Source: Pseudomonadota bacterium (GTDB lineage: Bacteria > Pseudomonadota > Gammaproteobacteria > Burkholderiales > Burkholderiaceae_C). Taken from it: DNA of 64,000 bases. Position numbers and translations under genes: made by a program. Below, piece after piece: positions 1 to 57,111 of this stretch; within the stretch, counting starts at the first letter, position 1, and each line of letters opens with the position of its first letter. The DNA is taken from positions 1-64,000 of the forward strand of contig JAJZVU010000013.1 in NCBI GenBank assembly GCA_021845505.1. The letters run 5' to 3'. The notes beneath the pieces are model-generated. The model did not search any database. It worked only from the letters and a program-made list of their open reading frames with translations, and was not told where the DNA came from.

Positions 1-1287
1 CGCGCTGTCGCTGGCGCGCGGCGCGCGACCGCCGACCAGGTGGCGCACATGCTGCTTGGCCAGTTCGTCCTCGCTGAGGTCCAGCGTGGCATAGCCGGCA
101 CGTCCCAGGTGGCCCGCGATGCGGCGGGCGTCGTCGCGGCTGCTGATGGACATGCCGACGAACACCTGGGCCTGCTGCGGGTCGCCCAGGCGGTAGTTGA
201 ACTCGGTGATCGCGCGCGCGCCCAGCAGCGAGCACAGCTTGCGGAAACTGCCCGGCTGCTCGGGGATGCTCACCGCGAACAGCGCCTCGCGCGCCTCGCC
301 GACCTCGGCGCGCTCGGCGACGAACCGCAGGCGGTCGAAGTTCATGTTGGCGCCACAAGTGATCGCCACCAGGGTCTGCGACTTCAGCTTGTGCGCGATG
401 GCGTACTGCTTGAGCGCCGCGACGGCCATCGCGCCGGAGGGTTCGAGCACGCAGCGCGTGTCCTCGAACACATCCTTGATCGCCGCGCACACCGCGTCGG
501 TATCGACCACCACGTAGTCGTCGACCACTTCGCGCGCCAGCCGGAAGGTTTCCTCGCCGACCCGCTTGACCGCGGTGCCGTCGGCGAACAGCCCGACCTC
601 GGCGAGCTCGACCCGGCGTCCGGCGCGCACGCTGCGCAGCATGGCATCGGAGTCGACCGTCTGCACGCCGATCACCCGCACCTCGGGGCGCACGGCCTTG
701 ATGTAGCAACCCACTCCGGAAATCAGCCCGCCACCGCCGATGGCGCAGAACACCGCATGGATCGGGCCGGGGTGCTGGCGCAGGATTTCCATGCCGATCG
801 TTCCCTGGCCGGCGATCACGTCCGGATCGTCGAAGGGGTGCACGAAGCTCAGGCCGCGCTCGCGCTGCAGCTGCGTCGCGTGGGCGGCGGCGTCGCTGTA
901 GCTCTCGCCTTCGAGCACCACCTCCACCGCCCCGGCGCCGAAGGCGCGCACCGCATCGATCTTGACCTTCGGCGTGGTCGAGGGCATGACGATCACGGCC
1001 CGGCAGCCCAGCTTGCGCGCGGCCAGCGCGACGCCCTGCGCGTGGTTTCCGGCCGACGCGCAGATCACCCCCCGCGCACGCTCCTCGTCGCTCAGGCGCG
1101 ACATCTTGTTGTAGGCGCCCCGCAGCTTGAAACTGAACACCGGCTGCTGGTCCTCGCGCTTGAGGAGCACCGAATTGTGCAAGCGGCGGCTCAGGTTGTG
1201 CGCGGTATCGAGGGCGGTTTCCTGCGCCACGTCGTACACCCGGGCGGTCAGGATGGCTTGCAGGTAATCGGCGGGTTTGCGGGTCAC
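1..1287 (-). CDS. ilvA: Threonine ammonia-lyase, biosynthetic (partial, C-terminus off the left edge)
   Basis: Deaminates L-threonine to 2-oxobutanoate, the first committed step of isoleucine synthesis, in the cytoplasm with PLP. About 429 residues are visible. The PLP lysine lies in SFKLRGAYNK (about K54), followed by the SAGNHAQG phosphate/substrate loop, a GGGGLISG glycine loop near residue 190, and from about residue 330 the start of the C-terminal ACT-type regulatory region (VSIPEQPGSFRKLC). Family members with two ACT domains are about 500-515 aa, so roughly 75-85 residues are missing beyond base 1. The start is GTG at 1287: an in-frame TGA lies six codons upstream, and the nearby ATG is out of frame. 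It is transcribed leftward, with a possible -10 box just upstream and a small RNA gene ending about 70 nt before the start. Confidence 0.95.
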   Translation of the reverse strand, partial: MTRKPADYLQAILTARVYDVAQETALDTAHNLSRRLHNSVLLKREDQQPVFSFKLRGAYNKMSRLSDEERARGVICASAGNHAQGVALAARKLGCRAVIVMPSTTPKVKIDAVRAFGAGAVEVVLEGESYSDAAAHATQLQRERGLSFVHPFDDPDVIAGQGTIGMEILRQHPGPIHAVFCAIGGGGLISGVGCYIKAVRPEVRVIGVQTVDSDAMLRSVRAGRRVELAEVGLFADGTAVKRVGEETFRLAREVVDDYVVVDTDAVCAAIKDVFEDTRCVLEPSGAMAVAALKQYAIAHKLKSQTLVAITCGANMNFDRLRFVAERAEVGEAREALFAVSIPEQPGSFRKLCSLLGARAITEFNYRLGDPQQAQVFVGMSISSRDDARRIAGHLGRAGYATLDLSEDELAKQHVRHLVGGRAPRASDSA

Positions 1288-1313
1288 GGACGGGGCCGGA
1301 GGTCAAAAAACCC

Positions 1314-1319
1314 ATTCTA
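1314..1319 (-). promoter_or_regulatory. Candidate -10 box of ilvA
   Basis: TAGAAT on the minus strand, 26 nt before the ilvA GTG codon. No convincing -35 element accompanies it. It would let ilvA be transcribed independently of the terminator-ended small RNA immediately upstream. Inference only. Confidence 0.35.
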
Positions 1320-1358
1320 CCCAGCGGGGGCCGCGCGCCCGCCGCAGCGGCGGCAGCC

Positions 1359-1387
1359 AAAAAAAAGCCCAGGCTGGGCCTGGGCTT
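1359..1387 (-). terminator. Rho-independent terminator of the small RNA
   Basis: On the minus strand AAGCCCAGG pairs with CCTGGGCTT around a 5-nt loop (1365-1387) and is followed by a run of eight T (1359-1366 as read on the minus strand, partly shared with the stem). The T run is on the minus-strand side only, fixing the direction. Confidence 0.85.
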
Positions 1388-1460
1388 GAATCCACCTATG
1401 GAGGAGGGTGGAGGAGACAAGGGGCGCTGGGACAGCTTGCAACCAAGCTCTCATCAGCAT
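1359..1460 (-). ncRNA. Candidate small RNA with two CUCCUCC anti-Shine-Dalgarno motifs
   Basis: A complete small transcription unit lies between ilvA and the OsmC-family gene. Reading leftward from a predicted start near 1460 there is: a 6-bp hairpin (AGCUUG/CAAGCU, 1434-1449, loop of 4); an unpaired CUCCUCC (1410-1416); a hairpin with stem CCACC/GGUGG (1392-1411) whose 10-nt loop carries a second CUCCUCC; and a 9-bp GC-rich hairpin followed by eight U (1359-1387). Predicted length is about 100 nt. A reading frame through it is leaderless and not rich in Ile/Leu/Val runs, so a peptide attenuator for ilvA is less likely. The design resembles known CUCCUCC-loop stress sRNAs of other proteobacteria, which pair with ribosome-binding sites; membership of any named family is inference. 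Confidence 0.7.
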
Positions 1461-1466
1461 GTCGCT

Positions 1467-1495
1467 ATCTTAGTACAAACCCGAGTGCATGGCAA
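1467..1495 (-). promoter_or_regulatory. Sigma-70 promoter of the small RNA
   Basis: TTGCCA (1490-1495), a 17-bp spacer and TAAGAT (1467-1472), read on the minus strand. This is one of the best matches to the sigma-70 consensus in the window and predicts a transcript start near 1460, immediately before the first hairpin. Confidence 0.75.
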
Positions 1496-1657
1496 AACCC
1501 CTTGCGCTTTGTGGGATAGATTCGTTGCATCATCATGCGCTGATATCGCGCGGCTGCGCGGAGTGCGCCGGGCGCCCCGCGGGGCAGCCGGCGCCGGTGT
1601 CGGACAATGGCGTCCTGCGCGCCGTGCGCGCTGGGCCACAACCAGGAGACCGGATCG

Positions 1658-2104
1658 ATGGAATGCACAGTGCAGTGGATGCAACCCGCTGGCGGGCAGG
1701 GAATGACCTTTGTCGCGGTGACGGGCAGCGGCCATGTGCTCGCGATGGACGGCGCACCCGCCGCGCGCCCGGGCGAGCCGGGAGGGAACAACCTGGCGCC
1801 GCGCCCGATGGAGACGGTGCTCGCCGGCACCGGCGGTTGCACCGCGTACGACCTGGTCTACATCCTGCACAAGAGTCGCCAGGACGTCCGCGGCTGCCAC
1901 GTGCGCCTGCAGGCCGAGCGCGCGACCACCGAACCCAAGGTGTTCACGAGCATCCACATGCATTTCGTCGTGTCCGGCCGCGCGCTGGACCGCGCCAAGG
2001 TCGAGCACGCGGTCGAACTGACCCGGGAGAAGTACTGCTCGGCGATCGCGATGCTCGGCGCCACCGCGACCATCACCACCGACGTCGAGGTGCTCGAGGT
2101 CTGA
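1658..2104 (+). CDS. OsmC/Ohr-family thiol peroxidase-like protein
   Basis: A 148-aa OsmC-fold protein. OsmC/Ohr proteins reduce organic hydroperoxides with two cysteines. Here the pair is C61 (in AGTGGCTAYD) and C127 (in REKYCSAIAML), the spacing expected for the family. The sequence is nearer the YhfA-like OsmC branch than Ohr, so the physiological substrate is uncertain. The start at 1658 is supported by AGGAG ten bases upstream; a longer frame from about 1607 has no such site. GACAAT at 1603-1608 may be the -10 box. The gene stands alone and converges on coq7 23 bp downstream. Confidence 0.88.
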   Translation: MECTVQWMQPAGGQGMTFVAVTGSGHVLAMDGAPAARPGEPGGNNLAPRPMETVLAGTGGCTAYDLVYILHKSRQDVRGCHVRLQAERATTEPKVFTSIHMHFVVSGRALDRAKVEHAVELTREKYCSAIAMLGATATITTDVEVLEV

Positions 2105-2109
2105 AGCGC

Positions 2110-2125
2110 CCGCGGCGCGCCGCGG
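2110..2125. terminator. GC palindrome between convergent genes
   Basis: A perfect 16-bp palindrome (CCGCGGCG and its complement) lies between the stop codons of the OsmC-family gene and coq7. It has no T run on either side, so it is at best a weak bidirectional pause or a rho-assisted end. Confidence 0.35.
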
Positions 2126-2127
2126 CG

Positions 2128-2823
2128 TCAGATCCAGTGCGCGGTGGTGGTCATCACCCGCGCCGCAGCGCGCATCGCCAGGCGCACCGGCGCCGGCAGC
2201 GGCGCGGCGCCCAGTTTCTCGGCCGCGACCGCGTGCTGCACTTCGTCGAACTTCATCTGTTCGACCACCGCGCGCGAGTCCTGGTCATGCTGGGGCAGGC
2301 GCTGCAGGTGCGAGGCCAGGTGCTGCTCGACCTGGTTCTCGGTCTCGACGACGAAACCCAGGCTGAGCCGGCGGCCCAGGCTGCCCGCCAGCGCACCCAG
2401 CGTCAGCGCGCCGGCGTACCACAGCGGGTCGAGCAGGCTGGGGCGCGAGTCGAGTTCGCGCAGCCGCTGGCTGCACCACGCCAGGTGGTCGCATTCGTCG
2501 CGCGCCGCGCGGGTGAAGTGGGCGTGCAGCCCGGGGTCGCGAGTCACCAGCGCCTGGCCCTGGTAGAGCGCCTGGGCGCAGATCTCGCCGACGTGGTTCA
2601 CCCGCATCAGCCGGCCCGACAGGTCGCGTTCGGAGGGCTCGAGCTCCTGGGCTGACTGCGGTTGCAGCGCGGCGGGGGCGCGGGGCATCGCCCGCGACGC
2701 GCGCAGGCCGCCGGCGAGGGTCTTCAGCGCATTGTCGGCGACGCCGAGCAGCCGGTCCTGCAGCGAGGCCGGGATGGCGCCGGCACGGGGGATCGACGGG
2801 GGGACGGGGGATGGCGGGGTCAT
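2128..2823 (-). CDS. coq7: 2-polyprenyl-3-methyl-6-methoxy-1,4-benzoquinol hydroxylase (demethoxyubiquinol hydroxylase)
   Basis: A 231-aa di-iron hydroxylase of ubiquinone biosynthesis that inserts the last ring hydroxyl of demethoxyubiquinol, peripheral to the inner membrane. The di-iron ligands are visible: a Glu in NHVGEICAQ, an ExxH in RDECDHLAW, a Glu in VETENQVEQHL and the final ExxH in MKFDEVQHA. I chose the ATG at 2823; upstream codons in the same frame read into the porin terminator region and are Pro/Arg-rich noise. The N-terminal 60 residues are Pro/Ala-rich and variable, as is common in betaproteobacterial Coq7. It is monocistronic, convergent with the OsmC-family gene and downstream of the porin terminator. 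Confidence 0.92.
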   Translation of the reverse strand: MTPPSPVPPSIPRAGAIPASLQDRLLGVADNALKTLAGGLRASRAMPRAPAALQPQSAQELEPSERDLSGRLMRVNHVGEICAQALYQGQALVTRDPGLHAHFTRAARDECDHLAWCSQRLRELDSRPSLLDPLWYAGALTLGALAGSLGRRLSLGFVVETENQVEQHLASHLQRLPQHDQDSRAVVEQMKFDEVQHAVAAEKLGAAPLPAPVRLAMRAAARVMTTTAHWI

Positions 2824-2931
2824 GGCAGGCGGCACGGGCTCGCGGCCCGCAGGGAACGCGTTCCCGGCATTGTCGCGCAATCGGGACGCCGGGCCACCGG
2901 GCCATCGCGCGCCGACATGCCGGGCTGGAAC

Positions 2932-2984
2932 AAAAAAAGCCGCCCGAAGGCGGCTTGGTCCAGCCGCCGCCCGAAGGCGGCGGC
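2932..2984 (-). terminator. Tandem hairpins with T run ending the porin mRNA
   Basis: On the minus strand two stem-loops follow the porin stop codon: an 8-9 bp stem with a TTCG-containing loop (2963-2984), then GCCGCC-TTCG-GGCGGC (2939-2954) followed directly by seven T (2932-2938). Both stems share the core GCCGCC/GGCGGC, so they may be a local duplication. This is a strong intrinsic terminator, fitting a highly expressed porin. Confidence 0.85.
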
Positions 2985-3012
2985 GAGGAAGCTGCACCGA
3001 TCGATACCCCGA

Positions 3013-4188
3013 TCAGAACATGTGGCGGATGCCCACCGCGAAACCGCTGGAGCTCTGGCCGGTGACACCCGAGAAGGCGTCGGTCGACGAGCCCACGGCC
3101 AGCGCGGTGCCGGTCCGGGTCGCGCTCGCGGCGTCGTTGCTGATGTGCGCGTACGAGGCGTACAGGTCGGTCTGCTTGGACAGGTTGTAGGTATAGCCGA
3201 TCGCGTACTGCTTGGCCGTACCCATGCCGTCGCCGGTGCCGCCGTTGGCGACCAGCGTGTCCTTGTTCTCGCTGAACGAGGCCAGGATCGCGCCGGGGCC
3301 GACCGGGATGGTCGCGCCCAGCATCCAGAACTTGGCGTTGCCGCTGTAGTAGTCCTGGGTCGCGTGCTCGTAGATGCCCGAGATCTTGGCCACGCCGAAG
3401 TCATAGGCGCCGTAGATCTGCCACAGCTTGAGCGCGCCGTCGGCCGCCGCGCCGGTCACGGCCGGGTTGGCGTACAGGTTGGTCGTGCGGGTGTAGTTCA
3501 CGCCGGCGGTGATCGGGCCGTTGCCGTACTGGCCGTTCAGGGTCCAGGCACGCGGAACGTTGCTGCCCGCGCCGCTGACGCTGGGCACGGTGCCCGAGCC
3601 AGCCGCGAACACGTAGGCGACCACGCCAGTGAAGCCCGACAGGTTCGGCGTGACGTAGGCCAGGGTCTGGTCGGCGCGGTACATGCCGTACTGGTGGACC
3701 AGGCCGATGTTGCCGATGTCGCCGTTCAGGCCGAATCCGAACGGATCCATGTTGGCTTCGTTGTCGAACGGAGCGGTGTACTGGCGGCCGCCGGTCACGG
3801 TACCGAAGTTGCCGGTCAGGCCCAACCAGCTCTGGCGCTGCATGAAGCCGCCGCCGGTGCAATAGGTCTGGGCCGTCGCGCCGACGGTCTGCTTGTCCTG
3901 GCTCGTGCCCGAGCCGCAGAAGCCGGTTTCGACGTCGAAGATCGCCGACACGCCGCCGCCGAGGTCTTCGGTGCCCTTCAGGCCGATGCGGTCGCCGGAC
4001 TGCACGCCCGAGCTCAGACCGGTCGAGCTGACGGTCTGGCCGGGGCTGGCGCTGCCCGCCGGCGCGAGGCCGGTGTAGTGGGTGATGCCTTCGTCGATCA
4101 AGCCGTACAGCTGCACGTTGCTGCCGCTAGCCATCGCGACGCCGGAGAAAGCGCCGAGCACGGCCAGCGCGATCAGGGATTTTTTCAT
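3013..4188 (-). CDS. Gram-negative general porin, Burkholderiales type
   Basis: A 391-aa outer-membrane trimeric beta-barrel for passive solute diffusion. The signal peptide is residues 1-20 (MKKSLIALAVLGAFSGVAMA) and the mature protein opens SGSNVQLYGLIDEGI, the typical first strand of Burkholderia/Bordetella porins. It ends in GIRHMF with the C-terminal phenylalanine read by the BAM complex. Two cysteines in the GFCGSG...TYCTGGG region probably close a loop. The start at 4188 has GGAGA about nine bases upstream; a frame opening at 4299 would place about 37 Arg/Pro-rich residues before the signal peptide. It is monocistronic with a strong terminator. No clear promoter consensus could be assigned. 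Confidence 0.93.
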   Translation of the reverse strand: MKKSLIALAVLGAFSGVAMASGSNVQLYGLIDEGITHYTGLAPAGSASPGQTVSSTGLSSGVQSGDRIGLKGTEDLGGGVSAIFDVETGFCGSGTSQDKQTVGATAQTYCTGGGFMQRQSWLGLTGNFGTVTGGRQYTAPFDNEANMDPFGFGLNGDIGNIGLVHQYGMYRADQTLAYVTPNLSGFTGVVAYVFAAGSGTVPSVSGAGSNVPRAWTLNGQYGNGPITAGVNYTRTTNLYANPAVTGAAADGALKLWQIYGAYDFGVAKISGIYEHATQDYYSGNAKFWMLGATIPVGPGAILASFSENKDTLVANGGTGDGMGTAKQYAIGYTYNLSKQTDLYASYAHISNDAASATRTGTALAVGSSTDAFSGVTGQSSSGFAVGIRHMF

Positions 4189-55348: not shown

Positions 55349-57040
55349 TCAGGCGGTGCGCTGGTCGCGCACCCCGAGTTCGTCCTGCATGGCTTCGCGG
55401 ATCTTGAACTTCTGCACCTTGCCGGTGATGGTCAGCGGGAAGGCCTTGACGAAGCGCACGTAACGCGGGATCTTGTAGTGGGCGATCTGCCCCTTGCAGA
55501 ACTCGCGGATGTCCTGCTCGGTGGGCTGACTGCCGGCGCGCGGGATGATCCATGCGCACAGCTCCTCGCCGTACCTGGCGTCGGGCACCCCGACCACCTG
55601 CACGTCCTGCACCATCGGGTGGCGGTAGAGGAACTCCTCGATCTCCCGCGGATAGATGTTCTCCCCGCCGCGGATGACCATGTCCTTGATGCGGCCGACG
55701 ATGTTCACGTAGCCCTCGGCGTCCATGGTCGCCAGGTCGCCGGTATGCATCCACCCCTCGGGGTCGATGGCCTCGCGGGTGCGCTCCTCGTCGCCCCAGT
55801 AGCCGTGCATCACCGAGTAGCCGCGGGTGCACAGCTCGCCGGCGGTCCCCGGCGGCACGGTGGCGCCGCTGGCCGGGTCGACGATCTTCACCTCCAGGTG
55901 CGGCTGCACCAGGCCGACCGTGCTGACCCGCCTGTCCAGCGGGGTGTCGGTGGAGCTCTGGCAGCTCACCGGCGAGGTCTCGGTCATGCCGTAGGCGATG
56001 GTGATCTGCGACAGGTGCATGTCGTCGACCACCCGCTTCATCACCTCCACCGGGCAGGGGCTGCCGGCCATGATCCCGGTGCGCAGGGTCGACAGGTCGA
56101 ATTCGGCGAAGCGCGGCTGGTCGAGCATCGCGATGAACATGGTCGGAACGCCGTGCAGCCCGGTGCAGCGCTCGGTCTGCACGGCCTGCAGCGTGAGCAG
56201 CGGGTCGAAGGCCGAATTCGGGTAGACGATGGTCGCGCCGTGGGTGATGCAGGCCAGGTTGCCCAGCACCATGCCGAAGCAGTGGTACAGCGGGACGGGT
56301 ATGCAAAGCCTGTCGTGCGGCTGCAGCTTCATCGCCTCGCCGATGAAATACCCGTTGTTCAGGATGTTGCTGTGGGTGAGTGTCGCGCCCTTCGGGAAAC
56401 CGGTGGTGCCGCTGGTGAACTGGATGTTGACCGGATCGTGGCAGTCCAGCCCGCGCGCCACGCGGGCCACCTCGGGGTCGCCGGCGCGCCCGCGGCCGAG
56501 CCACTGCGCGAAGCCCAGCATGCCCGGCTCGTCGCGCTCGCCCAGCTGCACGACCAGCCGCAGCCCCGGCAGGCGCGCCGCGCGCAGCTCGCCGGGTGCG
56601 CAATGCGCCAGTTCCGGGGCGAGTTCGCGCATCATCGCCAGGTAGTCGCTGGTGCGGAACTCGGGCATCAGCACCAGCGCCTGGCAGCCCACCTTGTTCA
56701 GCGCGTACTCGACCTCGGCGACGCGGTACGCGGGGTTGATGTTGACCAGCACGATGCCGACCTTGGCGGTGGCCAGTTGCATCAACACCCACTCCACGCA
56801 GTTGTGGGCCCAGATTCCCACGCGGTCGCCGCGCTGCAGCCCGCTGGCCAGCATCGCGCTGGCCAGGGTGTCGACCTCGCGCGCCAGCTGCGTCCAGCTC
56901 AGCCGGCGCTGCTGGTGCAGGCTGACCAGCGCGTCGCGCTCGCCCTGGCGCGCCGCCATGTCGTCGAAGAATTCCCCCAGCGTGCGGGTGATCAGCGGCT
57001 GCGCGGTGCTGCCGCAGGCGTAACTGGTGGTCAGTGTCAT
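55349..57040 (-). CDS. AMP-binding acyl-CoA synthetase (medium/long-chain type)
   Basis: 563 aa, ANL superfamily. P-loop [22 protein letters not shown] (~193-213), [11 protein letters not shown] adenine motif (~338), [37 protein letters not shown] hinge (~440-475), catalytic lysine in [14 protein letters not shown] (~540). Activates a carboxylic acid to its CoA thioester. Substrate not determinable. GGAGGAG precedes ATG 57040. Confidence 0.92.
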
Positions 57041-57111
57041 GGTCGTCTCCTCCGACTCGTCGTGCGGCTGCGTCGCTCGCGCATCGGCGCGCGGGCGGCG
57101 CGGCCCGGGTT

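Follow-up and report, generated by a model that had tools for sequence, protein, structure and literature searches.

Small RNAs with CU-rich anti-RBS stretches, which silence transport and catabolic genes by masking ribosome-binding sites, make up the curated Rfam family RF02278 ('Betaproteobacteria_toxic_sRNA'), whose experimentally studied members include S17 of Bordetella pertussis and NcS27 of Burkholderia cenocepacia. RNase E shortens the long form of S17, S17L (190 nt), to S17S, of about 67 nt, which associates with Hfq, and S17 represses BP2158 via its 5′UTR/ribosome-binding region, where pairing of Site 1 has been proven by compensatory mutations (PMC11722255). NcS27 is a 92-nt RNA with a short processed form and with predicted targets in transport and catabolism (PMC5688073); its overexpression slows growth, and its proposed role is metabolic shutdown upon nutrient deprivation (PMC5688073, PMC10987360). 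B. cenocepacia has four RF02278 copies, NcS27 and the double-hairpin RNAs ncS03, ncS05 and ncS62 (PMC5688073), and Herbaspirillum seropedicae likewise has four (Hsnc059, Hsnc063, Hsnc086 and Hsnc107), without established function (PMC7011215).

The original prediction for the locus described here proposed an independent small RNA with paired anti-Shine-Dalgarno loops next to ilvA; it noted that CUCCUCC-bearing sRNAs in other proteobacteria act on ribosome-binding sites in stress responses, and overlooked that the family is already known. We find that the sRNA gene is real and conserved and that it is an ordinary member of RF02278. What is new is only the orthologue in this genus, apparently Thiomonas, together with a computed list of targets; a literature search on Thiomonas sRNAs found no paper with either term in its title or abstract.

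The RNA is a member of RF02278

A scan of the whole window (the 64,000-nt stretch of DNA that was analysed) gave a single Rfam match, to RF02278, at 1359-1419 on the minus strand. It spans positions 1-64 of the 64-position model and scores 69 bits against a gathering threshold of 50, so that covariance searching of the 1359-1495 region, suggested as a check when the locus was first noted, came out in favour of the RNA. Since E = 7.9e-12 in 64 kb, the match is not a chance one. As in the rest of the family, and as in NcS27, ncS03, ncS05 and ncS62, there are two terminal hairpins with two CU-rich anti-RBS stretches, and the RNA finishes in an intrinsic terminator. The Herbaspirillum RNAs share with it a 5′ extension before the core; the window's genome has a single copy, compared with four in that species and four in B. 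cenocepacia.

At the sRNA locus the anti-hemB, suhB/mmgR and SorY models scored far under their gathering thresholds. Burkholderia anti-hemB RNA (RF02837) does resemble the window RNA in having a CCUCC loop followed by a terminator, but the match is weak (28.9 bits, gathering threshold 49.5) and the window RNA is not a member. The NmsR RNAs of Neisseria also have two unpaired CU-rich stretches that pair with ribosome-binding sites, a likeness of analogy only; they differ in their tandem arrangement and TCA-cycle targets (PMC5688073), and gave no Rfam match in the window.

Promoter, fold and terminator

The features of the sRNA gene are as follows.

1467-1495, minus strand: sigma-70-type promoter, with -35 TTGCCA at 1495-1490, a 17-nt spacer and -10 TAAGAT at 1472-1467
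1359-1462, minus strand: predicted primary transcript of about 102-104 nt, the start taken from the promoter and the end from the terminator
1426-1458, minus strand: hairpin I, in the 5′ part beyond the Rfam model, with variable sequence and conserved pairing
1359-1420, minus strand: conserved core, including the RF02278 match at 1419-1359; probably the processed form of about 62 nt, by comparison with S17S (PMC11722255)
1410-1416, minus strand: first CUCCUCC (Site 1 region), with UUGUCUCC free and UCC paired
1391-1412, minus strand: hairpin II, from the fold, pairing UCCACC (1412-1407) with GGUGGA (1396-1391)
1400-1406, minus strand: second CUCCUCC (Site 2 region), wholly within the loop of hairpin II and filling most of it
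1359-1387, minus strand: intrinsic terminator, made up of a 10-bp stem (1387-1365) and a U8 run whose last base is 1359

The near-consensus promoter TTGCCA-17-TAAGAT, the length of about 100 nt with three hairpins, and the terminator with eight U residues had all been proposed from the outset and were borne out. The promoter is the sole promoter-like site in positions 1-4000 of the window, where 0.2 would be expected from shuffled sequence. In 23/23 aligned genus loci the core is preceded, at a distance of 33-49 nt, by a promoter-like pair (TTGCNN-17/18-TANNAT), the -35-like box containing TTGC in 22 of them and reading TTCCTG in one, and the terminator was found in all aligned relatives. The sRNA is predicted to be a transcription unit in itself, with a sigma-70 promoter and a terminator of its own. 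A start near A1462 or A1460 would give a transcript of about 102-104 nt, compared with the 190 nt of S17L (PMC11722255).

Further upstream, at approximately 1514-1546, there is a box resembling ATATCAG-N-GCAT ... AAAT, some 20-50 nt before the -35 element and partly conserved at most genus loci; it may be a site for a regulator of the sRNA or a part of the osmC promoter. Between coq7 and a porin-like gene, at 2937-2956 on the minus strand, another strong hairpin with a T run resembles a terminator.

The RNA folds with z = -4.3 over 104 nt and -4.8 over its last 62 nt, and in neither case was any of 200 shuffles as stable. In a 17-sequence alignment five of the seven consensus pairs of hairpin I show compensatory changes on both sides, and the CU-rich core is mostly invariant; the six pairs of hairpin II never vary, and covariation therefore gives no support for or against its pairing. 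For the structure as a whole the covariation score was 0.176, compared with 0.103 for shuffled alignments (0/500 shuffles reached it) and with 0.012-0.089 when the structure was slid along the alignment, a control that weighs more than the shuffles because related sequences can exceed shuffles.

The CUCCUCC at 1406-1400 falls wholly in the hairpin II loop, just as had been claimed. The other had been described as single-stranded, and this holds for its CUCC, but the following UCC (1412-1410) is paired as the 5′ arm of hairpin II. This first CUCCUCC is invariant in the genus alignment, as is the sequence where an RNase E cut would be expected.

The long transcript might additionally encode a small protein, making it a dual-function RNA of the kind suggested for S17L on account of a 32-residue frame, and a 47-codon frame beginning with the ATG at 1460 does run through the RNA. 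However, most aligned members of the genus have lost this start codon, and the core is read in a frame that varies between species, so that we reject a conserved small protein encoded in the 5′ region and regard a dual function as extremely improbable.

Genomic neighbourhood and relation to ilvA

Synteny was assessed at named loci collected by an exact search for the 22-nt core, which matches at least 120 of them; 119 of the matches listed could be oriented. The sample is skewed both by requiring an exact pattern and by being confined to the matches listed. Among the matches listed, osmC (opposite strand) and/or coq7 (same strand) lie upstream in 83 of the 88 named loci having at least 1.7 kb of upstream sequence. 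In two Bordetella loci (L052, one of these 83, and L063) coq7 adjoins the RNA, matching the published position of S17. One locus labelled as a Chloroflexi MAG (L140) has the betaproteobacterial-type order coq7-osmC-sRNA, and its contig is probably misassigned.

Because coq7 adjoins the RNA in Bordetella loci too, we conclude that the window RNA is very probably the orthologue of S17 in particular, rather than simply any member of the family. The two also share the conserved core, a sigma-70-type promoter, a terminator, an unpaired 5′ Site 1 and a Site 2 displayed in a loop (PMC11722255), although their loops differ, with CUCCUCCUUU in the Bordetella loci and CUCCUCCAUA in the window.

On the downstream side, ilvA (PF00291 and PF00585) starts with GTG at 1287 on the same strand, 72 nt past the terminator, in agreement with the distance of about 70 nt first given. 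One further element lies between the two.

1313-1319, minus strand: TAGAATG, a conserved -10-like box upstream of ilvA and probably part of a separate ilvA promoter

It had been considered that the RNA could act as a 5′ leader or attenuator, occasional read-through of the terminator allowing it to control ilvA, and the close spacing on one strand is seen both in the window and at the aligned genus loci. However, ilvA was detected downstream in only 5/119 orientable named loci among the matches listed, that is, in a minority of lineages, and osmC/coq7 is the conserved neighbour, upstream. Moreover, a box reading TANAATG or TANACTG follows the terminator by 13-51 nt in 23/23 genus loci, and GGAGGAG, with which the RNA could pair, is absent from the region around the start of ilvA. 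Given the rarity of the linkage and the conserved -10-like box, we reject the leader, which we judge to be very unlikely; an independent anti-Shine-Dalgarno regulator is supported instead, by the RF02278 match and by osmC/coq7 rather than ilvA as its conserved neighbour.

Distribution and copy number

RF02278 RNAs were found in all 28 genomes searched in the genus and in 51/61 relatives. Across the order, 188 of 300 sampled genomes gave matches, 114 of them above the cut-off, and in a class-wide sample three genomes exceeded it, all in the window's own family. Outside the order, sub-threshold matches of 44-49 bits (in G468, G390 and G391, among others) could be distant relatives or chance.

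Copy number per genome ranges from one to nine. Four genomes of one family in the order (G043, G092, G214 and G305; family f8) each have seven to nine matches, some of which are a few hundred bases apart, and 8-kb stretches from Zoogloea sp. (L078) and Cognatazoarcus halotolerans (L107) each hold two cores, 1.45 kb and 0.33 kb apart, respectively.

Candidate targets

Target prediction against ribosome-binding sites gave 19 sites in the genome reading GGAGGAGA-N(3-12)-ATG, 16 of which start frames of at least 100 aa. By Pfam, seven of these 16 are MFS transporters or substrate-binding proteins. The others include two molybdopterin oxidoreductases (one SoxC-like), a Rieske protein, a rhodanese, an acyl-CoA synthetase, a BoxA-like protein, a response regulator, an OtsA-like glycosyltransferase and a P-type ATPase fragment whose ATG may be internal; the labels SoxC-like, BoxA-like and LivK-like are our reading of sequence and Pfam together. 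Two sites were as follows.

57038-57053, minus strand: candidate pairing site GGAGGAGAC-GACC-ATG at the start of a gene resembling acyl-CoA synthetases (AMP-binding, PF00501), complementary to Site 1 over 9 nt
LivK-like gene: candidate site GGAGGAGACC

For comparison we took the first 30 CAGGAGA-N-ATG loci in contig order. In this control one of 22 starts belonged to a transport component (20 of the 22 were Pfam-scanned), and the enrichment of transporters, 7/16 against 1/22, gives a Fisher p of about 0.005, with small sets and a non-random control. TAAGGAG-N-ATG as a control pattern yielded two sites only and was uninformative.

Conservation of these sites in the genus is uneven. The LivK-like gene has the 9-nt GGAGGAGAC before it in 9/15 sequences and AGGAGAC in 15/15, whereas the SoxC-like and BoxA-like genes keep the full site only in the closest relative, the others having AGGAGAC or GGAGAC, apart from some BoxA-like genes that depart from this. 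Since ribosome-binding sites here commonly read AGGAGA(C), many of the matches may be incidental and the LivK-like case alone is reasonable support.

Discussion

We consider it likely that the window RNA is a trans-acting RF02278 sRNA that would repress uptake and catabolic genes as S17 and NcS27 do. By analogy with those two RNAs, the transcript of about 103 nt is probably trimmed to about 62 nt, RNase E perhaps cutting near UUGU (1420-1417). Its free 5′ end (UUGUCUCC), together with the CUCCUCC loop, would base-pair with GGAGGAGA(C) sequences located at start codons, presumably with the assistance of Hfq. Such pairing would most likely block ribosome binding and so repress uptake and catabolic genes, the computed candidates being transporters, periplasmic binding proteins and the SoxC-like and BoxA-like oxidoreductases. 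The outcome could be metabolic shutdown or an ordering of carbon sources.

A different view would be that the RNA is toxic, a general inhibitor of translation that titrates ribosome-binding sites or ribosomes and is not a specific regulator. The family owes its name to growth inhibition of E. coli when cloned, an effect reported for some of its members, and overexpressed NcS27 slows B. cenocepacia (PMC5688073); however, overexpression of S17S left exponential growth of E. coli BL21 unimpaired and S17 has a proven specific target (PMC11722255), and the conserved core is longer than a minimal anti-Shine-Dalgarno sequence. We therefore think general inhibition improbable and retain specific repression in trans. 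It is conceivable, although doubtful, that in this sulfur-oxidising genus an S17/NcS27-type RNA has been wired for a switch between inorganic and organic energy, co-repressing SoxC-like, sulfite-oxidase-like, Rieske, BoxA-like and substrate-binding genes.

The window sRNA leaves the known mechanism of the family unchanged. Its value is that it gives an environmental genus a single-copy orthologue of a betaproteobacterial regulator that is widespread, and supplies a short list of testable candidate targets, and that the osmC/coq7 neighbourhood, as the conserved home of the gene, makes it easier to distinguish the orthologue from duplicates where a genome has several copies.
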